Assembly: GCA_000824785.1 (NCBI GenBank)
Contig: CCNB01000004.1
Span: 110,563-174,562, forward strand
Length of the DNA stretch: 64,000 nucleotides
Direction of reading: 5' to 3'
DNA from: Mesorhizobium plurifarium
Lineage (GTDB): Bacteria > Pseudomonadota > Alphaproteobacteria > Rhizobiales > Rhizobiaceae
The notes beneath the pieces are model-generated. The model was given only the letters and a program-made list of their open reading frames with translations. It searched no databases and had not been told where the DNA came from. Positions 7,572 through 55,966 of this stretch are shown here, piece after piece (within the stretch, counting starts at the first letter, position 1; the number at the start of each line of letters is the position of its first letter). The translations under genes were made by a program, and so were the position numbers.

Positions 7572-9215
7572 TCACGGAGCCACCCGGTAAAGCCCGAGCG
7601 ACAGCTTGTCTCCTGACGAATAGTTGATGCCGTCGATCTCGGTCAGGCGCTTGGCCGATTTCCCCTGGGCGGTCAGCACATCGGCAAGCTTCCGCTCGTC
7701 CTTGACCGGCGCCAACCCAAGCGCGCAGGACGGATCGTCAAGCAGGTGCCGCGCCACCCCCTCGACGTCGGTAAGCACCGTCTTGGTGCCGACCAGGAAG
7801 ACCAGGCTCGGCTCCTGGAATTTCGCCGAGGCGAGCACCGTGGTGTCGCAAAGCCGGTTGGCGTCGACGGCAGCCTTGATGGCGGGGCTCAGCCAGATCG
7901 GCTTCAGTGACGGCGCGATGACGCCGAACAGCAGGCTGAACGTGATGCCGGCGCCGGCCGCGATCGCGCCGATGCGCGGAAGCGGCACCTGCAACTGCCT
8001 GGGGAAAGCAAGATAGCCGGTGACCAGAGCGGCGATCGCCGCCGGTATGCTCCACCAGGAGAAGGTCCTGGCGAGATAGAGCGGCGCGCCGACGCAAACC
8101 ACGGCCAATCCGAGCGACACGACGACGACACCGAAAGCCGTCGCCCACCACAGCCATGTCTGCCAGCGCTTCAGCGGCGCGTTGGCCTGGTCCGCCGGCA
8201 AGGTGAGCAGCCAGCCGATCAGGAGCGCCATGCCCGGATAGGCCGGCATCACATAATGCGGCAGCTTGGTCGGGATCGCCTCGAACACCAGCCAGAACGG
8301 GATGTACCAGGCCAGGCAGAAGCGCAACCGCGGATCGTCCCAGAACCGGTTGATCGCCTGCAGCCCGGCGCCGACCGCGATCAGCCCGAAGGGCCACATG
8401 AACAGCGAATAGGTGAGCATATAGAAGCCGGGCGGCAGGCCGTGCGACTCCTCGCCCTGCGCCACCTTGTTCAGCATGTCTTTGCCGACCGCTTCCTGGA
8501 AAAAGGCGCCGCCGCTCTTCCAGGTGATCAGGATCAGCCAAGGCAGCACGATGACCAGCACGATGCCGACGCCGCGCACCAGCTTCATCTTCAGCAGCCA
8601 GCGCCAGTCGCGGTCGAAGGCAAAGAGGGCCGCGGCGGTCAGCAGCGACAAGAGCGGTGAGACTGGTCCCTTGATGAGGATGCCCAACCCTTGCGCGACC
8701 CAGAAGATCCACGGCAGATGCCCGGGAACCGGTTCATTGCGCTTCGAGGCCCAATAGACCTGCGCCAGCGCGCCTTGCGCCGCCACGCAGCAGGCGAGCA
8801 GCATCGCGTCGGTCTTGGCGTCACGCCCCTCGAAGGCGGTGGCGAAGATCGCCGCCATCATCAGGCCGGCGGCCAGTCCTGCATTGGCGCCGAAGAGTCT
8901 TGTCCCGGTCCAGCCGACGCCGACGACGGCCAGCGCAATGCCCAGCATCGAGACCAGGCGATAGACCCAGATCGGCGCCGCGGCCCTCTCGCCGCTCAAC
9001 GCGACCGCCACCGACTGCAGCCAGTAGATGCCGATCGGCTTCTTGTAGCGCGTGACGTCCTGCAGCCGGATATCGACATAGTCGCCCGTCTCGACCATCT
9101 GCTTGGTCGCCTGGACGAAGCGGGATTCATCGCGATCCACCGGCGGCAGGCTGGCCAGCCCGCTGACGGTCATGACGATGCTGAACAGAAAGAGGAAGAG
9201 GTAGTTCCTGTTCAT
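7572..9215 (-). CDS. ArnT/PMT-like membrane glycosyltransferase (GT83 type)
   Basis: A 547-residue multi-pass protein. The N-terminal LPPVDRDESRFVQATKQM holds the acidic Asp-Glu pair found in the first periplasmic loop of ArnT-like transferases. It is followed by RYKKPIGIYWLQS, about ten or more membrane helices, and a soluble C-terminal domain (about residues 440-547). ArnT enzymes move a sugar from undecaprenyl phosphate to lipid A; here the sugar and acceptor are unknown. It is followed on the same strand by the PAP2 phosphatase gene (47-bp gap), so the two may act together on outer-membrane lipids. Confidence 0.85.
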   Translation of the reverse strand: MNRNYLFLFLFSIVMTVSGLASLPPVDRDESRFVQATKQMVETGDYVDIRLQDVTRYKKPIGIYWLQSVAVALSGERAAAPIWVYRLVSMLGIALAVVGVGWTGTRLFGANAGLAAGLMMAAIFATAFEGRDAKTDAMLLACCVAAQGALAQVYWASKRNEPVPGHLPWIFWVAQGLGILIKGPVSPLLSLLTAAALFAFDRDWRWLLKMKLVRGVGIVLVIVLPWLILITWKSGGAFFQEAVGKDMLNKVAQGEESHGLPPGFYMLTYSLFMWPFGLIAVGAGLQAINRFWDDPRLRFCLAWYIPFWLVFEAIPTKLPHYVMPAYPGMALLIGWLLTLPADQANAPLKRWQTWLWWATAFGVVVVSLGLAVVCVGAPLYLARTFSWWSIPAAIAALVTGYLAFPRQLQVPLPRIGAIAAGAGITFSLLFGVIAPSLKPIWLSPAIKAAVDANRLCDTTVLASAKFQEPSLVFLVGTKTVLTDVEGVARHLLDDPSCALGLAPVKDERKLADVLTAQGKSAKRLTEIDGINYSSGDKLSLGLYRVAP

Positions 9216-9273
9216 CGCGGGAGCTCGTCCGATCTGAAACTGCGGGATGGCCCCGTCGCGGCGCGCCTGTCTA

Positions 9274-9322
9274 GAGCATGATGCCGAAAAGTGCGAAGCG
9301 GTTTTCGGACGACATCATGCTC
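9274..9322. repeat. Inverted-repeat element (GAGCATGATG...CATCATGCTC)
   Basis: Outer arms GAGCATGATG (9274-9283) and CATCATGCTC (9313-9322) are perfectly complementary, and inner CCGAAAAGTG/CGGTTTTCGG segments partly pair. It is a dispersed hairpin repeat related to the elements at 27751 and 57290. Confidence 0.7.
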
Positions 9323-9402
9323 CATGTCATTGATTTGCGCGGCGCTTCATTACGCCAGCAAGGAAGGTGAAGCAAGGACGGCTGCCCCACGCAACCAGGC
9401 CC

Positions 9403-9491
9403 AAAACCGGAAACCACTTTTGCTGACCGCATGTTTGTTGGTTAAAGCGCGATCGAACGCAAAACCGGAAACCACTTTTGCTGATCGCGCT
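9403..9491. repeat. Pair of 24-bp direct repeats with flanking inverted arms
   Basis: The 24 bases at 9403-9426 recur exactly at 9461-9484 (core AAAACCGGAAACCACTTTTG). The second copy is embedded in an inverted repeat, AGCGCGATC (9446-9454) with GATCGCGCT (9483-9491). This belongs to the same general hairpin-repeat class as 9274-9322. Confidence 0.75.
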
Positions 9492-9558
9492 TGGATGCTA
9501 AACGCGCGCCTTCATATCCAGCATGGCCAAAGTGCCCGGCGATCTCCAGGAAGAAAAA

Positions 9559-10812
9559 ATGTCCGCCTTCAAATCCGATTTCCTGCGCATCATGAGCGAG
9601 CGCGGCTTCATCCACCAGATTTCGGATGAATCAGCCCTCGACCAGCTTTTCGCCAAGGAAACGGTAAGCGCCTATATCGGCTTCGACGCCACGGCCCGGA
9701 GTCTGCATGCCGGATCGCTGATCCAGATCATGATGCTGCACTGGTTGCAGCAGACCGGCCACCGGCCGATCGCGCTGATGGGCGGCGGCACCTCGATGAT
9801 CGGCGACCCGTCCTTCAAGGACGAGGCGCGCAAGCTTTTGACTCCGCAGGACATCGACGACAATCTCGTCGGCATCCGCCGCAATTTCGCGCCTTACCTG
9901 AAGTTCGGCAGCGGTCCGGGCGACGCGGTCATGGTCAACAACGCCGACTGGCTGATGCAGATCAACTACGTCAACTTCCTGCGCGATGTCGGCCGGCATT
10001 TCTCCGTCAATCGCATGCTGGCCTTCGATAGCGTGAAGCTCAGGCTCGACCGCGAGCAGTCGCTGTCTTTCCTCGAATTCAACTACATGATCCTGCAGGC
10101 CTACGACTTCGTCGAACTCTACAAGCGCGTCGGCTGCCGGCTGCAGATGGGCGGCTCGGACCAGTGGGGCAACATCGTCAACGGCATCGATCTCGGCCAC
10201 CGCATGGAGGGCGTGCAGCTCTTCGCCATGACCACGCCGCTGCTCACCACCTCGTCCGGCGCCAAGATGGGCAAGTCGGCTTCCGGCGCGGTCTGGCTCG
10301 ATGGCGACATGCTGAGCCCCTATGAGTTCTGGCAGTACTGGCGCAACACCGAGGACGCCGATGTCGGCCGCTTCCTGAAGCTCTACACGACCCTGCCCTT
10401 GGACGAAGTCGCGCGCCTGGAAAAACTCGGCGGCTCAGAGATCAACGAGGCGAAGAAGATCCTCGCCACCGAGATCACCGCCATGCTGCACGGCCGCGAG
10501 GCGGCAGAGACGGCGAGTGAGACCGCGCGCAAGACCTTCGAGGAAGGCGCGCTCGCCGACACGCTTCCCAGCATCGAAGTGGCCAAATCGGATCTCGAAT
10601 CCGGCATCGGCATCCTGGCGCTGTTCGTGAGCGCCGGGCTGGCCGGCTCGAACGGCGAAGCGCGCCGGCATATCCAGGGCGGCGCCGTGCGCGTCAACGA
10701 CCAGCCGCTGACCGATGACCGACGCGTCGTCACGCTTCAGGATCTCGGTCCCGAAGGCGTCGTGAAGCTTTCGCTCGGCAAGAAGAAGCACGTGCTGGTG
10801 CGGCCGAGCTGA
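9559..10812 (+). CDS. tyrS: Tyrosine-tRNA ligase
   Basis: Class Ic aminoacyl-tRNA synthetase that charges tRNA-Tyr; cytoplasmic and essential. It is 417 residues, the normal bacterial size. The ATP-binding HIGH-equivalent is in [13 protein letters not shown], the tyrosine/tRNA region contains [14 protein letters not shown] and GGSDQWGN, and the KMSKS-equivalent is KMGKS. A C-terminal S4-like RNA-binding segment (residues about 350-410) ends the protein. The ATG at 9559 has AGGAAG eight bases upstream, so I prefer it to an in-frame ATG 36 bp earlier. It converges with the AsmA-like gene, with only 11 bp between stops. Confidence 0.97.
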
Positions 10813-10823
10813 TCGGCCGCACC

Positions 10824-13800
10824 CTACTGCGCGGTTTGGGACGGCTGCTGCCTGTACTCGAAGATCGAGCGGAATATCCCGGGCGCCACGACTGACAATG
10901 GGTTGATGTTGAGCGTCGGCTTGTTGGCGTTGCCGCGCAACCGGTAGGTGACGCCGATCAGGCCGCGGTCGCGCCCGTTGCCGAGCAGCGGCCCGAACAG
11001 CGGCAATTCGCCGAAGATGCGGTTGAGGCCATAGACCGGCATGAAGGTGCCGGTCATGTCCATGTTGTTGTTCGGATCGTAGAGCGTGCCCTGGAAGGTC
11101 GTGCCGATGCGCGGGCCGCGCAGCAGGCCGTTCGCCAGCCTCAGATAGCCGGAACCCTTGTCGATCTCGGCGAAGCCGCGCTCGAACTGCACCCTGGACG
11201 TATCGATATTGCCTTTGACGGCCTCGTTCAGGCTGCGTGTGTCGCCGGCCGGCGTCGTCGAAACGATCGAGGCGAGCTTGGGCTCGTTGACGATATAGAA
11301 ATTGCGGGCGTCCACCTGTCCCTTCATCGGCCCGTCTGCGGAGCCCGAGAGCGACAGCGTGATCGCGCCGCCTTCCATGTGCTCGTAGACGTTGAGGAAA
11401 CGCAGGATCGCGCCGGCATCGGCCGACTTCACCCTGAGCACGCGGCCGCCTTCACCGGTTGTGTTGTTGATCGTGATCGCCGCGCCCGAGCTTGCCGCGG
11501 CGGTGACGTTGAGCCCATTCACGCGCGATCCGGCGGCGCTGTATTCGAGTTTGAGATTGGACAGCACCTCGTCATGGAAGCCGATCAGCGATGCCACGTC
11601 GGCGCTCACCGAGACAGCGTCGCTGCCTGCGCCCTTCGTCGCGGTGTCGACATCCGAGGTGAATTGCTTGATCAGCGAGCGGGCATCGAGCGACGCGCCG
11701 CTGACGTCGACGGCATAGCTCTTGCCGGAGCGCTTCACCGAAACGGCGACGTCGTCACCCCGGTTCAACGAAACCTTGCTGAAGCGGGCCGTGGACAACG
11801 CGCCGTTGACCAAGGTCAGATTGCCGTCGATGGAAAAGCTTTTGCCGCCGAGATCGAAATCCGACAGCGTGGTGGTGCTGCCGGACTTCGCCATGTCGAA
11901 CGTAACCTTGGCGGGAATGCCGGCGCCTTTGCTCCAGCCCGCCCAGGGAATGTCGAGCCTGGCGTTGGTCAGGTCGGCCGAAACCTGCTGGGCGCCCTCG
12001 CCGCTCTTGTCGATCGCCACCTTGATGGTTCCCGAAAGCAGGTCCGACAGGCCAGGCATGCTGGCGTTACGCGTCTTATCGTCGAGGATCAGCGTAACCT
12101 TGCGGCTTCGCGCCGGCCCGTCATCTTCGAGCGGCTCGACGAGATCGAGCTCGGCTGGAATGCCGTTGAGCTTGGCTTCGGCGGAGATCACCGCCTGCTT
12201 GGGCCCGACGGTAATCGAGCCGTCGGCCTCGGTCACCGTCTGGTCCTCGAACGGTTTCGCTAGCGACAGATTCTGATAGTCGAGCGAAACCAGCCAATCG
12301 AGCGTCGAGGTGTCCATGCCTTTCGTCAGCGGAATGTCCGCCCTGACATGCCCGGTGACGGTGCCGGACAGATCCTCGGACGCCAGCCCAACATGGCGCA
12401 TGGCATTGATCGGCTCGTAGGAGGCAAGCTCCGCGATCGCCGGCGCCTCGCCCGCGACATCCATGTCGAGCTTGCCGACCACGATCGGCAGGTTCGCGTT
12501 CTTGATCGTCAAGGTGCCGCCGCTTGCCGCCACGGTGCGGCCGCTCGGCATATAGACGCTGCCGGAGGAGAGCGCGATGTCGACATCGTTGCCGTGGAAC
12601 GCGACGGCGCCGACGGCGTCACGCACCGGCGGGATGCGCCCAGCGGTATCGAAGCGCGATCCTTCGATCTGGAAACGGCCGAACACTTCGTCGCCGGTCA
12701 GCGGCACGCCGTTGCCCAGGCGACCCGGGACGACCTGGAACTGCAGATTTGCATCGGTCACCGTGCCGCCGAACAGATTGCCCAGCACCCAAAGCCGCGC
12801 GTTGCGGGCTGAGAACCACGGCCACAACTGCTTGACATGCGAGACCGGCATGTCGTGCACATTGAGGGAGAGCGATACGCCCGGCGGACCGTTGTCGACG
12901 AAAGCGACCGTGGCGGCGCCCAGCACCTCACCCGGTCCGCCGGAGCGCACGCCGATCTGCTCGGCGACGAGCTTGCGGCTCTTCGGCTGGTAAACGCCGG
13001 CGATACGGGCCAGGAATTGAAGCGCCGGTTCCGGCGATTCCGAAGGTGCCAGCGTCGAGCCATCGCTGGTGAGGTCATAGCGGTAGGCGGGTTCCTCTCC
13101 CGCCACTGCCGGCTTCGGTCCGATCGATCCGGCAAAATCGAAGCTGGAGCGGCCGCTTTTGATCAGCAGCCGGTCGACCGATATCTTGTTCGAACCGGCC
13201 ACCAGCGTGGCATCGGCATCGACATCGGTCGGCAGCAGCCCACGTTCGTCCAGGTCGAGCACCGAACCGTTGAGCGAGAGCGAGGCCGCCAGGCGCGATG
13301 GGCTGTCGCCCGACGCCTCTGAGCCCGAGAGCTTCAACGCGATCGACCCCACCTTCCCGCCCTCCTCGGACGAGCCGGCCTCGGTCGAATTCCCCTCGCC
13401 GGAGGGGCCGGCTATCTCGAGCTTGGCATCCAGCGACGAAATGCGCCTTGCCGTCGCATCGCGTGTCGCCGAGGCGACCAAGGTTGCGTGCCTGCCATCG
13501 ACATCGGCATCGTAGGAGGCCTGCATGCTTCCCGTGCCGGTCTGCGCGACGGTCGCCGAGGTGACGGTCACGCGCTTGACCGGCCCGGTGTCCGGCAGCT
13601 CGAACTCGACATTGCGCAGGTCGATCTGGCGCATGGAGTCCTCGCGCACGGCATCCAGCGCGTCGTTGACGCTGGCAAACACCGCCGTCGACACTTTCTC
13701 CGGATCGACAAGGCCGTCCTGGTTGCGCAGCGCCGCCGTCCAGTCGCCGCCGCCGGAGGGCATGGCGGCCACCACGATATGAGCGTCGGAAAATCTGGCG

Positions 13801-48451: not shown

Positions 48452-49390
48452 TCAAGGACGGACTGCCGGATCGCGCGTCGTCCCGGATTTCGTCGCCCGC
48501 GCCGGGTCGAAGAGCGCCTCGAGAAAGGCTTGGACCAGCAAACTCTGGGCATCGGCCTTGCGGTAGGCGACGCGGTGGACGGAGCTGAATGCGTAGGCTC
48601 TCGGCCGGATCGCCCGCATTTCGCCCTTTGCCACCCATGGATCCGCGAAATGGCAAGGCAGGAAGCCGATGAAGTTGCCCGAAAGGATCAGCATCAATTG
48701 TGCCTCCATATGGACCACGGACGCGCTCGCGCGCGGATGGCCGACAAGATAGAGGTCGTCGAAATGCCGGTAGCTGCGGACAGAAAAACGGGCGGTGTCG
48801 ATAGCCGCCTTGTCGATCGTTGAATCCGGCACGGCAAATAGAGGGTGGCGCCGCCCGCAGTAGAGGAGATGCGGCTCTCCGCAATAATCGCGGTAGACGA
48901 CGCCCGGCGCCTTTTGTGACAGCGGTCCGATGACAACGTCCCGGCCACCGTCCGCGACCTGTTGTTCGAGCTCGGATGGCGTGCCCACCGTCAGGTCGAT
49001 GAAAACATCGGAATCCGGTCCCATGAAGCGGCTGAGGGCATGTTGGATGCCGAGCTCCGCGCTGGTGAACACGCCGTCGGAGGTGCCGAGCCGCAATCGC
49101 CCCGACAGGCTGCCGCTGGCCGCACTGATGCGATGCCCGAAATCGTCAAGGTCGCGAAACAGCTTCTGCGCGGCATCGTAGGTGGCTCGGCCGACCTCGG
49201 TCAGCCGGAATTGCTTGCGCCCGCGATGGCAGAGCTGCGCGCCAATGCGCTTTTCCAGCTCGGCCAGATGCGTGCTCAGCGTCGGCTGCGACAGATTGAG
49301 CGTGATCTGGGCGGCCGCGAAACCGCCGCAGTCGGCCAGCGCCACGAAGACGCGAAGCAGGCGGATATCGATATTGTCCAGCCGGCGCAT
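48452..49390 (-). CDS. LysR-family transcriptional regulator
   Basis: A 312-residue regulator. The N-terminal winged helix is LRVFVALADCGGFAAAQITL, then LNLSQPTLSTHLAELEKRIG; the C-terminal part is the periplasmic-binding-protein-like inducer domain. It is divergent from the SsuABC-like operon (119-bp gap), the probable target. The dyad ATCGA-N6-TCGAT in the gap could be its binding site. Confidence 0.93.
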   Translation of the reverse strand: MRRLDNIDIRLLRVFVALADCGGFAAAQITLNLSQPTLSTHLAELEKRIGAQLCHRGRKQFRLTEVGRATYDAAQKLFRDLDDFGHRISAASGSLSGRLRLGTSDGVFTSAELGIQHALSRFMGPDSDVFIDLTVGTPSELEQQVADGGRDVVIGPLSQKAPGVVYRDYCGEPHLLYCGRRHPLFAVPDSTIDKAAIDTARFSVRSYRHFDDLYLVGHPRASASVVHMEAQLMLILSGNFIGFLPCHFADPWVAKGEMRAIRPRAYAFSSVHRVAYRKADAQSLLVQAFLEALFDPARATKSGTTRDPAVRP

Positions 49391-49408
49391 GCCACTCCCC
49401 TCGGCTAC

Positions 49409-49424
49409 ATCGACATTCTTCGAT
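49409..49424. promoter_or_regulatory. Candidate LysR operator between divergent genes
   Basis: ATCGA-CATTCT-TCGAT (49409-49424) is a perfect 5-bp dyad in an A+T-richer stretch, located 19 bp before the LysR ATG and about 85 bp before the operon ATG. LysR sites are typically short interrupted dyads; the assignment is positional. Confidence 0.4.
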
Positions 49425-49509
49425 ATATGCTTCTAAATAAACTCATTTACATCAATGTTGAAAGCCGCGAGCCTGCGCAAAACAAAACACAAAACATTGG
49501 GGAACAATC

Positions 49510-50502
49510 ATGAAATCATCCAAGGCCTTCGCCTTGTCCGCCGCGCTCGTACTCGCCGGCGCGCAATCCGCCTTCAGCGCCGACCAGATCCGCATCCTGG
49601 CGCCCACATGGTTGGGATTCGCACCCGTCCACATTGCGTCCGACCTTGGCTGTTTCGCCAAGAAGGATCTCGATGTCAGCATCAAGTTCGAAGACGACCT
49701 GACGAACGTCATGGCGGCGATGGCGCGCGGCGACATCGAACTGCAGATGCGTTCGGTCGGCGAATATCAGGGCCGGCCGCGCGATGCCTCGACCCCCGGG
49801 ATCATCATCGGCACGATCGATGAATCGGTTGGCGGCGACGGCGTGATCACCGACGACAACGTCAAGTCGGTGGCCGACCTCAAGGGCAAGGTGGTGGCCG
49901 CGGAGCCCAATATTCCCGCGCGCCTGCTGCTGCAGATGGAGCTGAAGCAGGCGGGCCTGTCGCTGAAAGACCTTCAGATCAAGGATATCGCGTCCGCCGA
50001 CACCGGCGCGGTGTTCGTCGATCCCTCGATCGCCGCGATCGCCACCTATGAGCCGTTCATGTCGCAGGCGCTCAAGGCCTCGACCCGACCGGGCGCGCGC
50101 ATGCTGATCTCATCCAAGGATCATCGCGGCATCATCATCGACGCGATCATCGTGCGCAACGATGATCTCAAGGCCAACGCGGACAAATATGCCCGTTTCC
50201 TCGGCTGCATCTATGAAGCCGTCGATTTCATCAAGGCCGAGCCGGACAAGTTCGCCGAGATGGCGTCCAAGCATTTCGGGCTGACGCCGGATGAGGTGAA
50301 GGGGATCGTCAACGGCTCGCTCTCCTACACCACGCTTTCCGAGTCGCTCGCCTATATGGGCAAGCCGGGCGAGAAAGGCACCCTGCACGGCATCTTCGAC
50401 ACCGTCATGCAGCTCAACCTGGAAAACGGCGCCGCCGACAACAAGCTGATCGCCGCCGATCAGATCGACAACTCGGTGATCAACAAAGTGCCTGCGAAGT
50501 AG
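49510..50502 (+). CDS. ABC transporter substrate-binding protein (NMT1/SsuA-like)
   Basis: A 330-residue periplasmic protein with a Sec signal (MKSSKAFALSAALVLAGAQ, cleaved after AFS). The mature N-terminus IRILAPTWLGFAPVHIASDLG, then MAAMARGDIELQMRS and VADLKGKVVAAEP, are typical of NMT1/SsuA-like proteins, which bind sulfonates, taurine, guanidino or heterocyclic compounds. GGGGAAC lies before the ATG. It is the first gene of a seven-gene operon whose enzymes suggest a nitrogen-rich substrate. Confidence 0.9.
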   Translation: MKSSKAFALSAALVLAGAQSAFSADQIRILAPTWLGFAPVHIASDLGCFAKKDLDVSIKFEDDLTNVMAAMARGDIELQMRSVGEYQGRPRDASTPGIIIGTIDESVGGDGVITDDNVKSVADLKGKVVAAEPNIPARLLLQMELKQAGLSLKDLQIKDIASADTGAVFVDPSIAAIATYEPFMSQALKASTRPGARMLISSKDHRGIIIDAIIVRNDDLKANADKYARFLGCIYEAVDFIKAEPDKFAEMASKHFGLTPDEVKGIVNGSLSYTTLSESLAYMGKPGEKGTLHGIFDTVMQLNLENGAADNKLIAADQIDNSVINKVPAK

Positions 50503-50552
50503 GTCTTCCGATACGCGCCGCAGCCTCCCCCATCACCCCAGGGATAGCGATT

Positions 50553-51335
50553 TTGTTCAGCAATCTGTTCGTCTTCCGCGGCCGTGTTGCGCCGATGGTG
50601 GAACTTTCGGTCGGCATCGCCGCGGCTTTCCTGGTGGTGGCGGCCTGGGAGGCGGCCGCGCGCTCCGGCATCATCGCGCCGCAATTCCTGCCCTCGCCCA
50701 CCCGCGTGGTCGCCGCCCTGTGGACGATGCTGACCGAACAGAACCTCGTCTGGCACGTTGCCGTGTCGACCGCTCGCGTCTGGATCGCGTTCCTGCTGGC
50801 GGCGGCGATGGCGATCCCGATCGGCATCATGATGAGCTCCTATCGCATCATCGGCGCCGCGCTGGAGCCGATGATCGACTTCATCCGCTACCTCCCGGTC
50901 CCGGCGCTGGTGCCGTTGTCGATAATCTGGTTCGGCGTCGGCGAGGAAACCAAGGTCTTCCTGTTGTGGCTGGGCACATTCTTCCAGCTCGTGCTGCTGG
51001 TGGCCGACGACATGCGGCGGGTGCCGCAAGAATTCGTCGAGGTGGCCCGCACCGTCGGCGCCAACTCGCGGCAGGTGATGACGGACGTCGCCCTGCGCTG
51101 GATGGGACCGACGCTCATCGACAACCTGCGCATCACGCTCGGCTGGTGCTGGACCTACCTGATCATCGCCGAGATCGTCGCCGCCGATTCCGGCATCGGC
51201 TACGTGATCTGGACGGCGCGCCGCTTCGTCAAGACGCCCGAGGTCATGGCCGGAGTCGTGGTCATCGGGCTGATCGGCCTCGTCACCGACCAGTTGCTTC
51301 GCCTGCTTCACCGCCGGCTGTTCCGGTATCTGTGA
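50553..51335 (+). CDS. ABC transporter permease (SsuC-like)
   Basis: A 260-residue inner-membrane permease with about six helices. The coupling loop is in EFVEVARTVGANSRQVMTDVALRW. The start is a TTG at 50553 with AGGGATAG upstream; the first ATG is 42 bp further. It is the membrane partner of the binding protein and ATPase on either side. Confidence 0.9.
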   Translation: MFSNLFVFRGRVAPMVELSVGIAAAFLVVAAWEAAARSGIIAPQFLPSPTRVVAALWTMLTEQNLVWHVAVSTARVWIAFLLAAAMAIPIGIMMSSYRIIGAALEPMIDFIRYLPVPALVPLSIIWFGVGEETKVFLLWLGTFFQLVLLVADDMRRVPQEFVEVARTVGANSRQVMTDVALRWMGPTLIDNLRITLGWCWTYLIIAEIVAADSGIGYVIWTARRFVKTPEVMAGVVVIGLIGLVTDQLLRLLHRRLFRYL

Positions 51336-51345
51336 GGGCACGACG

Positions 51346-52116
51346 ATGAGCGCATATGTCCAGTTCGCCGATACGGCGAAGTCTTTCGGCCCTGTCGAAG
51401 TGGTGCGGAAAACCAATCTAGGCCTAGAGCGCAACTCGCTGGTCGTCTTTCTCGGCCCGTCGGGCTGCGGCAAGACCACGCTGATGAGGATGGTCGGCGG
51501 GCTCGACGAACCAACCTCCGGCTCCATCCTGCTTGGCGGCGAGAAGGTCGTGCGGCCCGACCGGCGGCGCGGCATGGTGTTCCAGTCCTACTCGTCCTTC
51601 CCCTGGCTGACGGTCGAACGCAACATCGCCTTCGGCATGCGCTACCGCAACGACATCACGTCGGCGCAAAAGTCGGAGCGCACACGCCATTATCTGGACC
51701 TGTTCGGCCTTGCGGATTTTGCCGCTTCCTATCCGAACCGGATTTCAGGCGGCATGCGCCAGCGTGTCGCCATCGCGCGCACGCTTGCCGCCGGCTCCGA
51801 CGTGCTCCTCATGGACGAGCCTTTCGGCGCTCTCGACGCGCTGACGCGCGAGCGTCTGCAGGTCGAATTGCGGCTGATCCAGATCCGCGAGGAAAAGACC
51901 GTCATCTTCGTCACTCACGACGTCGAGGAAGCGGTGTTCCTGGCCGATCGGATCATCCTGTTCTCGCGCCGGCCCGCCTCGGTGGTCGCCGATATCGACG
52001 TGGCGGCCGAGCTCGGGCCGCAGCGGCCGCTGGAAATCCGCGAAACGCAGAAGTTCTTCGAGCTGCGCAACAAGGTGCTGCATCTGATCCGCAACGAAAC
52101 CGGGACAGCGGTATGA
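51346..52116 (+). CDS. ABC transporter ATP-binding protein (SsuB-like)
   Basis: A 256-residue ATPase. Walker A is GPSGCGKTT, the signature ISGGMRQRVAIARTLA, Walker B VLLMDEPFGALDA and the His loop is in FVTHDVEEAVF. Its stop overlaps the first dehydrogenase gene as ATGA. Confidence 0.93.
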   Translation: MSAYVQFADTAKSFGPVEVVRKTNLGLERNSLVVFLGPSGCGKTTLMRMVGGLDEPTSGSILLGGEKVVRPDRRRGMVFQSYSSFPWLTVERNIAFGMRYRNDITSAQKSERTRHYLDLFGLADFAASYPNRISGGMRQRVAIARTLAAGSDVLLMDEPFGALDALTRERLQVELRLIQIREEKTVIFVTHDVEEAVFLADRIILFSRRPASVVADIDVAAELGPQRPLEIRETQKFFELRNKVLHLIRNETGTAV

Positions 52117-52868
52117 GCCTCTCCTTCTCCGGCAGGGTCGTGGTGATCACGGGGGCGAGCCGAGGCATCGGGCTCGGCATAGCGCACCGCTTCGCGCAGG
52201 CCGGCGCCACGCTGCACCTGATCGCCAACGATGCAGCCATCCATGAGCGGGCGCGTGAACTGAATGCCACCGGCGCCGAGGCCGACATTGCCGATCGCGA
52301 GGCGGTTGCGGCGGCGCTCGCCTCCCTCGCCCGCATCGACGTGCTCGTCAACAATGCCGGGCTCGAGCTGATGACGCCGGTCGATGACGCCGGCGACGAC
52401 AATGAGGCTGCGTTCCGCCGCATCGTCGAGATCAATGTGATCGGAACCGCCCTGGTCACGGCGCGAGCCTTGCCGCGCATGCCGGCCGGCGGTTCGATCG
52501 TCAACACGGCCTCGATCTGGGGGCGCGTCGCCGAAGCGAGGTTCGGCGCCTATGTGGCCTCCAAGCACGCCATCATCGGCCTGACGAAAACCTGGGCCAG
52601 GGAGCTCGGCCCGAAAGGCATTCGCGTCAACGCCGTTTGCCCTGGCTGGGTGCGCACGGAGGCTTCCATGCGCTCGCTCGGCCGCATGGCCGAGCACGAC
52701 GGCCGCGGCGAGGCCGAGCTGCTCGACGCGATTGTCGATGGACAGGCGCTGCCCGGTCTCATGGTGCCGGATGACGTCGCCGGCACCTACCTCTTCCTGG
52801 CCTCGGACCTTGCCGCCAACATCACCGGACAATCGCTCGGCGTCGACAGGGGAGAAGTGCCTTGGTAG
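52113..52868 (+). CDS. Short-chain dehydrogenase/reductase, first of a pair
   Basis: A 251-residue NAD(P)-dependent oxidoreductase. The cofactor motif is TGASRGIGLG, the NNAG segment is VNNAGLEL, and the catalytic Ser and YxxxK are in VNTASIWG and AYVASKHAII. It is coupled by ATGA to the ATPase gene and by overlap to the next dehydrogenase gene. It likely oxidises a hydroxyl or reduces a carbonyl of the imported compound. Confidence 0.88.
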   Translation: MSLSFSGRVVVITGASRGIGLGIAHRFAQAGATLHLIANDAAIHERARELNATGAEADIADREAVAAALASLARIDVLVNNAGLELMTPVDDAGDDNEAAFRRIVEINVIGTALVTARALPRMPAGGSIVNTASIWGRVAEARFGAYVASKHAIIGLTKTWARELGPKGIRVNAVCPGWVRTEASMRSLGRMAEHDGRGEAELLDAIVDGQALPGLMVPDDVAGTYLFLASDLAANITGQSLGVDRGEVPW

Positions 52869-53569
52869 CTGCACTGCATGGAAGGCGCGCGCTCGTCACC
52901 GGCGCCGCCAGCGGAATCGGGCGGGCGACGGCGCTGGCGCTGCGGGAAGCCGGCGCCACCGTCATCGGGCTGGATCTGATCGGATCCGAGCGGGACCTGC
53001 CCATCCTTACCTGTGACCTCGCGAGGGAAGGCGATATCGTCGGTGCCGCCGCCGAAGGCGCGCGCCGGCTCGGCGGCTGCGATATACTGGTCAACAATGC
53101 CGGCATCCTTCAGGAAGCACCGCTCGGCCGGATCTCGACTGAACACGTGGACCGCATGTTCGCGGTCAACGTCCGCGGCGCCATCCTGATGACGCGGGAA
53201 ATGCTGCCTCACCTCGCCGATGGTGGCCGCATCATCAACATCGCCTCGGAACTCGCCTATCTCGGCCGCGCCGAGGCTTCGGTCTATTGCGCCACCAAGG
53301 CCGCTTTGCTCGGCCTCACCCGTTCCTGGGCGCGGGAACTCGCGCCGCGCATCCTGGTCAACGCCGTGGCGCCGGGACCGACTGACACCCCGCTGCTGGG
53401 CTTCGACGTCCTCAGCGAGAACCAGCAGGCACAGGAGACTATGCATCCGCTGCGCCGGATAGGCAGGCCTGAGGAAATCGCGTCAGCCGTCGTCTTCCTC
53501 GCTGGTCCTGGCTCGACGTTCTTCACCGGACAATGCCTCGGCGCCAATGGCGGCGCGGCCATGCTTTGA
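52862..53569 (+). CDS. Short-chain dehydrogenase/reductase, second of a pair
   Basis: A 235-residue enzyme with TGAASGIGRATALALREAG, VNNAGIL, INIASELAY and the active-site VYCATKAAL. The start is a TTG overlapping the previous stop by seven bases, with GGGGAGAAG well placed. It is only moderately similar to its neighbour, so the two probably act on successive intermediates or stereoisomers. Confidence 0.85.
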   Translation: MVAALHGRRALVTGAASGIGRATALALREAGATVIGLDLIGSERDLPILTCDLAREGDIVGAAAEGARRLGGCDILVNNAGILQEAPLGRISTEHVDRMFAVNVRGAILMTREMLPHLADGGRIINIASELAYLGRAEASVYCATKAALLGLTRSWARELAPRILVNAVAPGPTDTPLLGFDVLSENQQAQETMHPLRRIGRPEEIASAVVFLAGPGSTFFTGQCLGANGGAAML

Positions 53570-53585
53570 GATGGGAAAGATGATG

Positions 53586-54353
53586 ATGGACAGCGTTTTC
53601 CTGGCCGAGCTGCCTTGGCCCGAAGCCCAAAGAAGGATAGCCGCCGGCGCGCCGATTTTCCTGCCGCTTGGCTCGACCGAGCAGCATGGCCACCATATGG
53701 CGATGAACGTCGATGTCGTGATCCCGACCGCCATTGCCGCGAGTGTGGCGTCGGAAGTGGGAGGCCTCGTCGCGCCGACGATCGCCTACGGCAATCGCTC
53801 GCAGCCGAGAACCGGCGGCGGGCCGGCCTTTCCCGGCACGGTCAACATCACCGCGCACACCTTTTCGCTTCTGGTCAAGGACGTCATCTGCGACCTGCAT
53901 CGTCAGAAGGTACGGCGCATCGTGGTGCTCAACGGCCATTACGAAAACATCGGCCCGTCGATCGAGGGCATCGAACTGGCGCTCGACGCGATCGGTCGCG
54001 ACCGCGCCGCGGACGTGACCATCCTGCGTATCGATCATTGGGAGATGGTACGCGCCGAAACCCTCGCCAGGGTATTTCCCGACGGCTATCCCGGCATCGA
54101 ACTGGAACATGCAAGCGTGATCGAAACCTCGATGATGCTGGCGCTGCGCCCGGAACTCGTCGATCTCGACCGGGCCTTGCATGACGGCCCGGCCCGCTTC
54201 AAGCCCTATGACCGTTATCCTCGCCCAGCCGAAGAAGTGCCGCCCTCGGGCGTGCTGTCGCTCACCGAAGGCTCCTCTGCCGAGAAGGGCCGCTGGCTGC
54301 TGAGCGACTGCGAAACGCGCATCGCCGAAATCGTCAAACGTGAATTCGCCTGA
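53586..54353 (+). CDS. Creatininase-family amidohydrolase
   Basis: A 255-residue cytoplasmic metal hydrolase. Ligand motifs are STEQHGHHMAMNVDVV (Glu, His and Asp) and VVLNGHYENIG; GIELEHASVIETS supplies a further Glu/His. Creatinine amidohydrolase opens a cyclic guanidine; other members cleave formamides and cyclic ketones. Three tandem ATG codons lie at 53580-53588; only the last has GGGAAA at proper distance. It precedes a ureohydrolase gene, which supports a guanidino-type pathway. Confidence 0.85.
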   Translation: MDSVFLAELPWPEAQRRIAAGAPIFLPLGSTEQHGHHMAMNVDVVIPTAIAASVASEVGGLVAPTIAYGNRSQPRTGGGPAFPGTVNITAHTFSLLVKDVICDLHRQKVRRIVVLNGHYENIGPSIEGIELALDAIGRDRAADVTILRIDHWEMVRAETLARVFPDGYPGIELEHASVIETSMMLALRPELVDLDRALHDGPARFKPYDRYPRPAEEVPPSGVLSLTEGSSAEKGRWLLSDCETRIAEIVKREFA

Positions 54354-54354
54354 G

Positions 54355-55332
54355 ATGACCAACACCATGCAGAACAGCTTCCACCAACCCGTCGACGCCG
54401 CGCAGGTGCCGCGCTTTGCCGGACTTTCCACCTTCATGCGGTTGCCGGCCGTGCCGACGGCGAAGGGGCTCGACATCGCGCTTGTCGGGATTCCCTGGGA
54501 CGGCGGCACGACGAACCGGGCCGGCGCCCGCCACGGTCCGCGCGAAATCAGGAACCAGTCGAGCCTGATGCGCCGCGTCCACCACGTCTCGGGAACGGAG
54601 CCGTTCAGCATCGCCAACATTGCCGATGTCGGCGACCTGTCGGTCAATCCCATCAATCTGCTCGACGGGTTGAAGCGCATCGAGGACGGCATTGCGGCCA
54701 TCGTCGCCGAGGGAGCGCTCCCCCTGGCCGCCGGCGGCGATCATCTGACGACGCTGCCGGTGCTGCGCGCGGTGGCCCGCAAGGCGCCGGTCGGCATGAT
54801 CCACTTCGACGCCCATTCCGACACCAACGACCGCTACTTCGGCGACAATCCCTATACGCACGGAACGCCTTTCCGGCGCGCGATCGAGGAAGGCCTTCTC
54901 GACCCCAAGCGGGTCATCCAGATCGGCATCAGAGGTTCGATCTATGAGCCCGGCGAGCACGACTGGGCGAGAGCCCAAGGAATTCGTATCGTCTATATGG
55001 AGGAATTCATCAAACGCGGCGCCGCTTCGGTCATGCAGGAAGCGCGCGATCTCGTCGGCGACAGCCCGACTTATGTGACGTTCGACATCGACTGCATCGA
55101 TCCGTCCATGGCGCCCGGCACCGGCACACCGGAACTCGGCGGCTTCACCACGCGCGAGGCGCAGGAAATGGTCCGCCTGCTGGACGGATTGAATTTCGCC
55201 GGCGCCGATGTCGTCGAGGTCTCGCCTCCGTTCGATCTTGCCGGCATGACGGCGCTGGCCGGCGCGACGATGATGTTCGAGCTGCTGTGCGTCATGGCGA
55301 GATCCCTGGCCGATGGGAGAGCCCGCGCCTAG
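54355..55332 (+). CDS. Agmatinase/arginase-family ureohydrolase
   Basis: A 325-residue manganese (or nickel) enzyme that removes urea from a guanidino compound. The metal-binding motifs are GGDHL, HFDAHSDT and FDIDCIDPSMAPGTGTPE. The latter, with PGTGTPE, matches the agmatinase/guanidinobutyrase group rather than arginase. The ATG at 54355 follows the creatininase-family stop by one base; a GTG at 54340 is an alternative. Because it is co-transcribed with transporter and dehydrogenases, its substrate is probably the imported compound or its product. Confidence 0.88.
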   Translation: MTNTMQNSFHQPVDAAQVPRFAGLSTFMRLPAVPTAKGLDIALVGIPWDGGTTNRAGARHGPREIRNQSSLMRRVHHVSGTEPFSIANIADVGDLSVNPINLLDGLKRIEDGIAAIVAEGALPLAAGGDHLTTLPVLRAVARKAPVGMIHFDAHSDTNDRYFGDNPYTHGTPFRRAIEEGLLDPKRVIQIGIRGSIYEPGEHDWARAQGIRIVYMEEFIKRGAASVMQEARDLVGDSPTYVTFDIDCIDPSMAPGTGTPELGGFTTREAQEMVRLLDGLNFAGADVVEVSPPFDLAGMTALAGATMMFELLCVMARSLADGRARA

Positions 55333-55427: not shown

Positions 55428-55468
55428 TAGAGCGGTTCGCCGTTTCCGTGAAACGGTGAAACGCTCTA
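55428..55468. repeat. Hairpin repeat TAGAGCG...CGCTCTA overlapping the GNAT stop codon
   Basis: Outer arms TAGAGCG (55428-55434) and CGCTCTA (55462-55468) and inner arms CCGTTTC/GAAACGG form a long interrupted stem. The final three bases are the stop codon of the GNAT gene. Confidence 0.75.
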
Positions 55469-55966
55469 GTCTGGAAAGGTCTCGATCCTCTCCGCGTAAC
55501 CTCTGAAACCCGCGCGCTCGTAAACCGACCGGGCCGCCGGATGATCATAGGTGTCGGTGTGAAGCCACAGCCTTTGCGGCCGATGCGACCACGCCGCGCG
55601 CAACGCCTGATCGAGCAGGAACGGACCCAAGCGCTTGCCTTGAAAGGCCGGGACCAGCCCGAAGTGGACGAGCTCGATAGCCGCTTCGCCGACATTGTTG
55701 AACTCGCAGAAGCCCGCGGCCTCGCCATCGACGCGCAGCACATGGATATGCGTAGAAGCGCCGGCAAGCAGCGTTTCGAGGTCCGCTTCCGGCATGCGCA
55801 GGCGCTGATCCCATTGCACCGGTCCGCCGACCGAGCGGTAGAGATCGAGATAACTGGCAGGATCGAGCCTTTCGCGCGTCACGATCGCGTCCGGCGACGG
55901 TGACGCAAGCGGCGCGCCCTGCGGCGGCGCCAGCATCTCCATATAGGTGACGAGAAGATCGACCAT
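55466..55966 (-). CDS. GNAT-family N-acetyltransferase
   Basis: A 166-residue acetyltransferase. The acetyl-CoA motif A is LVPAFQGKRLGPFLLDQAL, close to the V-x-x-x-x-Q/R-G-x-G/A pattern, and motif B contains ARSVYERAGF. The acceptor is unknown. It lies 24 bp downstream of the alpha/beta hydrolase gene on the same strand. Its 3' end runs into a hairpin repeat. Confidence 0.85.
   Translation of the reverse strand: MVDLLVTYMEMLAPPQGAPLASPSPDAIVTRERLDPASYLDLYRSVGGPVQWDQRLRMPEADLETLLAGASTHIHVLRVDGEAAGFCEFNNVGEAAIELVHFGLVPAFQGKRLGPFLLDQALRAAWSHRPQRLWLHTDTYDHPAARSVYERAGFRGYAERIETFPD

Follow-up and report, generated by a model that had tools for sequence, protein, structure and literature searches.

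Creatininase-fold enzyme, two dehydrogenases and a guanidinopropionase-like ureohydrolase in a conserved Mesorhizobium operon, possibly for guanidino-compound catabolism

The described systems that come closest to a locus of Mesorhizobium plurifarium, found in a 64,000-nucleotide stretch of contig CCNB01000004.1 (hereafter the window), each resemble it in part. The locus (positions 48452-55332) has eight genes: one on the minus strand for a LysR-type regulator and seven on the plus strand, divergent from it (49510-55332), for the substrate-binding protein (SBP), permease and ATPase of an ABC importer, two short-chain dehydrogenases (SDR1 and SDR2), a creatininase-fold amidohydrolase (CRN) and a ureohydrolase (URH). 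First, the creatininase of Pseudomonas putida (PDB 1j2t/3a6e family) shares with CRN the fold, the metal ligands and the NCBIfam model, whereas CRN has Ile in place of Trp174, stands apart on the tree, and belongs to a genome without creatinase. Second, the 3-guanidinopropionase GpuA of P. aeruginosa (3nip) is 64% identical to URH and shares with it the Tyr157 loop and its surroundings, but the locus of URH has eight genes, among them those for the SDRs and CRN; the neighbours of gpuA in P. aeruginosa are presumably a permease and a LysR gene. Third, the creatininase-creatinase clusters of Mesorhizobium and Shinella (L088-L092, L100 and L101) resemble the window in their LysR regulator, ABC importer and creatininase-family enzyme; they differ from it by an M24/creatinase-type protein in place of URH and the SDRs, by an importer annotated as spermidine/putrescine type, and by the presence of Trp174. 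Fourth, IolN (3-dehydro-scyllo-inosose hydrolase) has the creatininase fold and acts after dehydrogenases in inositol breakdown, but CRN reaches only 76 bits where its model requires 245. Fifth, the guanidine carboxylase and guanidinase (GdmH) systems (PMC12186494) have in common with the window ABC import, guanidine nitrogen and, in the GdmH case, an arginase-family enzyme, whereas the window has no riboswitch and the operon genes include no carboxylase.

We propose, with a probability of about 0.45, that this locus is a LysR-controlled catabolic operon which imports a guanidino compound and degrades it by a lactam route. This process would involve 1) uptake, by the NMT1-type importer, of a guanidino alcohol or of a ring compound behaving like one; 2) two oxidations by SDR1 and SDR2, the second converting a cyclic hemiaminal into a cyclic acyl-guanidine (the lactam), a step modelled on the oxidation of lactol to lactone by aldose dehydrogenase; 3) opening of the lactam by CRN to give a guanidino acid, the likeliest being 3-guanidinopropionate or a near analogue; and 4) hydrolysis of this acid by URH to urea and an amino acid (beta-alanine or an analogue). 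We infer the substrate, every reaction, their order and the control by LysR. Three links point to this order. URH-type enzymes favour substrates that bear a free acid, and the opening of a lactam by CRN can supply it, which would place CRN before URH. The SDRs stay with CRN when URH is gone, which suggests that they act next to it. Finally, SDRs paired with CRN without URH, and URH persisting alone, together suggest that oxidation and ring opening belong with each other and that urea release is most likely last. A preliminary description of this DNA had proposed a guanidino substrate, and this is still the best guess, since the nearest relative of URH is a guanidino-acid hydrolase and CRN is in the family of the creatininase that opens a cyclic guanidine. 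It had also placed ring opening first, then urea release, then oxidation; this order is less likely, because SDRs accompany CRN without URH (L104, L140-L143) and URH is found alone at the operon site. The enzyme families are known, as is the catabolism of guanidino compounds and, as that description had supposed, we found no account of a pathway with this gene set and arrangement in the open-licence literature, which was searched partly through the best 30 of 224, 20 of 112, 15 of 64,453 and 5 of 344,950 matches. If the proposal is true, bacteria of root nodules, soil and water would have a further way to recycle organic nitrogen, a group within the creatininase-named family that probably acts on another substrate would be singled out, and there would be a natural guanidino substrate still to be named.

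The four enzymes, which many other alpha-proteobacteria share, are constant where the importers and regulators vary. Searching one genome per species with CRN alone gave 40 loci, 14 of which are named Mesorhizobium; many are close relatives and the counts are not independent. At orthologue identity limits of 55-65%, SDR1, SDR2, CRN and URH were each present in 38 of these loci and jointly in 37, more often than chance would allow. The exceptions are a creatininase linked to creatinase (L083), a locus with URH only (L084) and one with SDR fragments and no URH (L060); in L080 the contig ends within URH. Regulators and importers of the window type, by contrast, were present in about half of the loci (LysR in 23, SBP in 22, permease in 22, ATPase in 23). 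Of the 24 divergent loci compared, 8 have a different NMT1 binding protein next to a conserved minus-strand gene of another kind. In the one locus tested (L058) the latter is TetR-like, L058 and L072 have binding proteins with matches to NMT1 families, and five of the eight records carry what we take to be Rhodobacterales names. Amino-acid type ABC genes stand beside the enzymes in L038 and L086, and at least three importer types accompany the four enzymes overall. This constancy of the enzymes among varied importers is strong evidence, from gene content, that SDR1, SDR2, CRN and URH would serve a single pathway. A DUF1989 gene, of a family presumably linked to urea or guanidine carboxylase, lies directly after URH in L087 and after an amino-acid ABC set in L119, which we count in favour of the guanidino substrate.

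Among solved relatives, URH is closest to GpuA; its identity falls to 48% with GbuA and 41% with proclavaminate amidinohydrolase (PAH). The stretch around Tyr157 of GpuA is identical in the window URH, and the tyrosine is kept in the aligned URH rows linked to SDRs and CRN, except for the deeper L019, which has Phe (L119 and L135 lie outside the alignment). The earlier label "agmatinase-like" holds in so far as URH passes the agmatinase model TIGR01230 (196.3, cut-off 174.3), but GpuA and GbuA outscore the solved agmatinases by far on the same model, and URH is nearer to 3-guanidinopropionase. It is a guanidinopropionase-like enzyme for which the name "agmatinase" may be misleading. A human relative of GbuA named agmatinase was shown to be a guanidino-acid hydrolase that acts on neither agmatine nor creatine and cannot work efficiently on a substrate lacking a negatively charged group (PMC9772407). 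As for the dehydrogenases, the nearest PDB chains are D-3-hydroxybutyrate dehydrogenase for SDR1 and glucose 1-dehydrogenase for SDR2, which also has the NCBIfam aldose dehydrogenase among its top models, under the cut-off. Glucose and aldose 1-dehydrogenases act on a carbon of the sugar ring, and the resemblance of SDR2 to them counts in favour of the proposed route. Both SDRs carry the TGxxxGIG-type, NNAG and YxxxK signatures of SDRs.

Loci in which the set is incomplete show which genes part from which. Gene calls in several relatives come from a simple open reading frame (ORF) picker and include some wrong-strand or merged frames (e.g., in L085); the locus and tree labels rest on BLAST matches, and one aligned row translated out of frame (ATP58) was given no weight. 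L085 has CRN and URH, with no SDR seen within its 19.9-kb stretch. Conversely, a Salipiger plasmid (L104:2095-9233) encodes a TetR regulator, an NMT1-type importer, an FMN monooxygenase (Bac_luciferase), CRN, SDR1 and SDR2, and no URH was seen along this stretch. L140-L143, which come from outside the class of the window, combine a CRN with Phe at residue 174 (F174 type) and SDR relatives at 43-46% identity, again with no URH seen in the stretch; their neighbours encode a desaturase-family protein (by Pfam in L140 and L142), an EamA transporter (by Pfam in L141) and, in L142, an isochorismatase-family hydrolase (Pfam) nearest to biuret amidohydrolase, under the cut-off of the latter. We found no published description of this sister cluster in the open-licence literature, and no named carriers of the L142-type cluster on plasmids among the best 12 of 22 records obtained with the L142 CRN; the best plasmid match among them, from Ancylobacter (53.7%), belongs to a cluster whose annotated genes are for creatininase, nucleoside deaminase, hydantoinase subunits and isochorismatase, with no SDR in the part of the annotation covered. 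In L120, SDR2 and CRN are followed by a Rieske oxygenase and no SDR1 was seen, and in L118, a 3.8-kb contig, a LysR fragment rather than URH follows CRN. CRN is thus the hub of these arrangements, found with URH without SDRs and with SDRs without URH.

URH, in turn, persists by itself. The operon site lies between an HD-domain gene and GNAT or hydrolase genes, and we compared it in 30 same-genus loci (the best 30 of 59 matching genomes, out of 61 searched): six have the operon LysR and SBP, six have URH directly after the HD gene, and 18 have neither. The lone URHs of these six loci and that in L084 of M. loti have open frames throughout the part aligned, and their pairwise dN/dS, among themselves and against the window, ranges from 0.06 to 0.13, as expected under purifying selection. 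Remnants of the 3' end of CRN precede the open URH in two of the seven loci (L157 and L084, at 9960-10082), which shows that the operon was lost in these lines and its last gene retained; no recognisable remnant was found in the other five. URH seems to catalyse a terminal step and to have an independent use as well.

A number of points weigh against the proposed route. First, SDR families are promiscuous, and the oxidation of a hemiaminal is proposed by analogy only. Second, the SDRs may be dispensable, given L085. Third, the CRN of L104 has Asn in place of the metal ligand His120 and may have a different chemistry. Fourth, other enzymes, of differing chemistry, replace URH in L104, L120 and L140-L143; the SDR-CRN triad may therefore work on other cyclic amides and would have no need of guanidines. 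Fifth, a URH kept alone in seven loci (six same-genus and L084) need not depend on CRN. Sixth, the fold search with SBP points to no guanidine binder in particular. Seventh, the Rfam scan of the window at gathering scores returned two tRNAs only and no guanidine riboswitch, and a riboswitch-controlled guanidine system was set aside for that reason. Last, guanidinoethanol, which has no negative group, is a poor substrate of one human GbuA-like variant, according to PMC9772407.

The alternative that fares best is that the two SDRs and CRN degrade an unrelated cyclic amide, URH being a mere bystander that the operon acquired as its last gene. The triads without URH (L104, L140-L143) and the low dN/dS of lone URHs in the genus are what it would predict. 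It does not easily explain why 37 of the 40 loci, with their varied importers, have URH together with the triad, nor why CRN is paired with URH in L085, where no SDR was seen, and we regard it as unlikely.

The identity of the CRN substrate bears on the next alternative. CRN exceeds the cut-off of the NCBIfam creatininase model TIGR04448 (317.9 against 235), and its predicted structure matches a solved creatininase with a TM score of 0.95. The metal ligands E34, H36, D45, H120 and E122, whose roles we assume to be those of creatininase, are all kept in the window CRN and in every other aligned row (L104 is outside that alignment). Residue 174, however, is Trp in the characterised creatininase and Ile in the window; we take Trp174 to be an active-site residue, and W174F mutants are among the deposited creatininase structures, by their titles. 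We placed CRN in a midpoint-rooted tree of 55 rows, drawn from the loci in hand and not a random sample; rows under the length or identity limits were dropped from alignments, locus comparison and tree. Rows were called SDR-linked when a relative of SDR1 or SDR2 at 42% identity or more lay within the locus. This gave 25 SDR-linked rows, 13 that are creatinase-linked or characterised, and 17 that are neither, the window and PDB rows being assigned by hand. Trp174 is found in 13/13 of the creatinase-linked or characterised rows and in none of the SDR-linked ones (I in 17, F in 4, T in 3, Y in 1). The 17 other rows (W in 13, L in 3, and I in one, L085, which has URH) show that loss of Trp is not restricted to SDR-linked rows. 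Branches with support of 99/98 separate the two labelled sets from each other, and each set implies a single change on the tree against a mean of 11 in shuffles. The branch of L104 is long (0.87), so its placement is unsure, and L102 (Trp, unlabelled) is placed with the SDR-linked rows, though weakly supported there (86/88). L142, an F174 relative in another gene context, also exceeds the TIGR04448 cut-off (372.8); since it and the window both pass, the model does not discriminate, and it over-calls if their substrates differ. The name "creatininase" is unsafe in these genera. As CRN lacks Trp174 and stands apart on the tree, creatinine itself is an unlikely substrate, and CRN is probably, despite its database name, a relative of creatininase with another substrate. 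The loss of Trp174 would fit a ring different from that of creatinine, for instance the six-membered lactam of 3-guanidinopropionate.

Trp174, the tree and the missing creatinase led us to give up ordinary creatinine breakdown as the main reading. A creatinine pathway with a new last step could nevertheless be imagined, in which CRN converts creatinine to creatine, URH takes the place of creatinase and yields sarcosine and urea, and the SDRs work elsewhere. The creatininase score, fold and metal ligands of CRN would fit it, as would L085 with its CRN and URH, and a genome in which we found no creatinase (a single match at E 1e-10, of 23% identity). Yet the split of Trp174 between the labelled sets (13/13 against 0/25) and their separation on the tree argue against creatinine, a creatininase-creatinase cluster does occur in other strains of the genus, the SDRs would be left without a role, and the human guanidino acid hydrolase did not hydrolyse creatine (PMC9772407). 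We consider this pathway quite improbable.

Another possibility, very unlikely in our view, is the cleavage of a carbon-carbon bond: the SDRs would make a ring diketone, CRN would cleave it as IolN does, and URH would trim a guanidino side group. IolN offers the precedent of a creatininase-fold enzyme working after dehydrogenases, and its similarity to CRN is detectable (76 bits). However, CRN scores 76.2 against the cut-off of 245 of model NF041098 while passing that of creatininase, the importer is not of sugar type, and the loop that URH retains is typical of an enzyme acting on small guanidino acids.

Proteins of the NMT1 type have many different ligands, and the structure model of SBP did not narrow the choice. 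The preliminary description had called the importer SsuABC-like, which is right at the family level, but SBP scores 78.8 against SsuA_fam (TIGR01728), under the cut-off of 163.5. Its AF2 model (pLDDT 80.6) has TauA, SsuA and the formylaminopyrimidine-binding protein as nearest solved folds. The import of a sulfonate such as taurocyamine, to be hydrolysed by URH, is in line with this proximity of the ABC parts to SsuA and TauA by family and fold, but it is very unlikely, given the SsuA_fam score, the absence of a recognised desulfonating enzyme among the operon genes (Pfam), the lack of a role for CRN and the SDRs, and the diversity of NMT1 ligands, mirrored by the spread of SBP fold matches. 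The second NCBIfam match of SBP is a putative urea binding protein (62 bits, cut-off 333.9). Many genes annotated as urea carboxylase actually use guanidine, according to PMC12186494, so this resemblance is suggestive only. Isocytosine-type, divicine-type, lombricine-derived and creatol-type substrates were also considered; there is no evidence for them and none is claimed.

A broader view, which we find rather unlikely, is that SDR1, SDR2 and CRN form a widespread and unrecognised module that oxidises and then opens cyclic nitrogen compounds, the window holding its guanidine version. The module would turn a cyclic hemiaminal into a lactam, to be opened by a creatininase-like lactamase without Trp174. 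It could be fitted with different front ends (none, an FMN monooxygenase, a membrane desaturase-type oxygenase or a Rieske enzyme) and with different nitrogen-releasing ends, such as a ureohydrolase for guanidino acids or an isochorismatase-type amidase for ureido acids.

The layout of the locus is compact, and the gene calls of the preliminary description (importer, two SDRs, creatininase-fold enzyme, ureohydrolase) are all present with matching families (Table 1). In the ORF table the gaps are 50 bp between SBP and permease and 10 bp between permease and ATPase, whereas ATPase and SDR1 overlap by 4 bases and SDR1 and SDR2 by 7. SDR2/CRN and CRN/URH either overlap or leave a short gap, depending on the start codon chosen (53547 or 53586 for CRN, 54340 or 54367 for URH). 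The nearest downstream ORF with orthologues (55466-55966) is convergent to the operon, which, with the divergent LysR on the other side, bounds it at both ends. The LysR-SBP intergenic region, of 119 bp, contains a conserved imperfect palindrome (ACATCGA...TTCGATGT), which stands out best among the Mesorhizobium rows and less among the distant ones and is a probable LysR binding site.

Table 1. Features of the locus, with positions in the window.
Feature	Position	Strand	Basis
LysR-type regulator	48452..49390	-	Pfam HTH_1 and LysR_substrate; orthologue at 55% identity or more in 23/40 related loci
Imperfect palindrome, putative LysR binding site	49407..49426	.	intergenic alignment, window and 20 loci
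SBP, NMT1-type substrate-binding protein	49510..50502	+	Pfam NMT1, E 7e-15
ABC permease	50553..51335	+	Pfam BPD_transp_1
ABC ATPase	51346..52116	+	Pfam ABC_tran
SDR1, short-chain dehydrogenase	52113..52868	+	Pfam adh_short_C2; TGASRGIG, NNAG, YxxxK
SDR2, short-chain dehydrogenase	52862..53569	+	Pfam adh_short_C2; TGAASGIG, NNAG, YxxxK
CRN, creatininase-fold amidohydrolase	53547..54353, likely start 53586	+	TIGR04448, 317.9 bits, cut-off 235
URH, guanidinopropionase-like ureohydrolase	54340..55332, likely start 54367	+	Pfam Arginase, E 9.5e-95

The operon is an accessory trait in Mesorhizobium: of the 89 other genomes of the genus, 9 have its CRN at an identity of at least 70%. Strong CRN matches, of mixed kinds, occur in 11 of 385 genomes sampled from the class and in 12 of 398 from the phylum. 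One contig, assigned to Arenimonas by binning (L082), has operon identities nearly those of the Ciceribacter-like L062-L064, possibly through a binning error. Elsewhere, creatininase-family genes with W or L at residue 174 lie near another arginase-family gene and ABC genes (L094, at 9071-11170, and L097), possibly a further cyclic-nitrogen pathway. On a plasmid of Rhizobium CIAT894 (L038:4200-11414), the four enzymes are accompanied by an HpcH/HpaI aldolase, a cysteine desulfurase-like protein and an M20 amidohydrolase.

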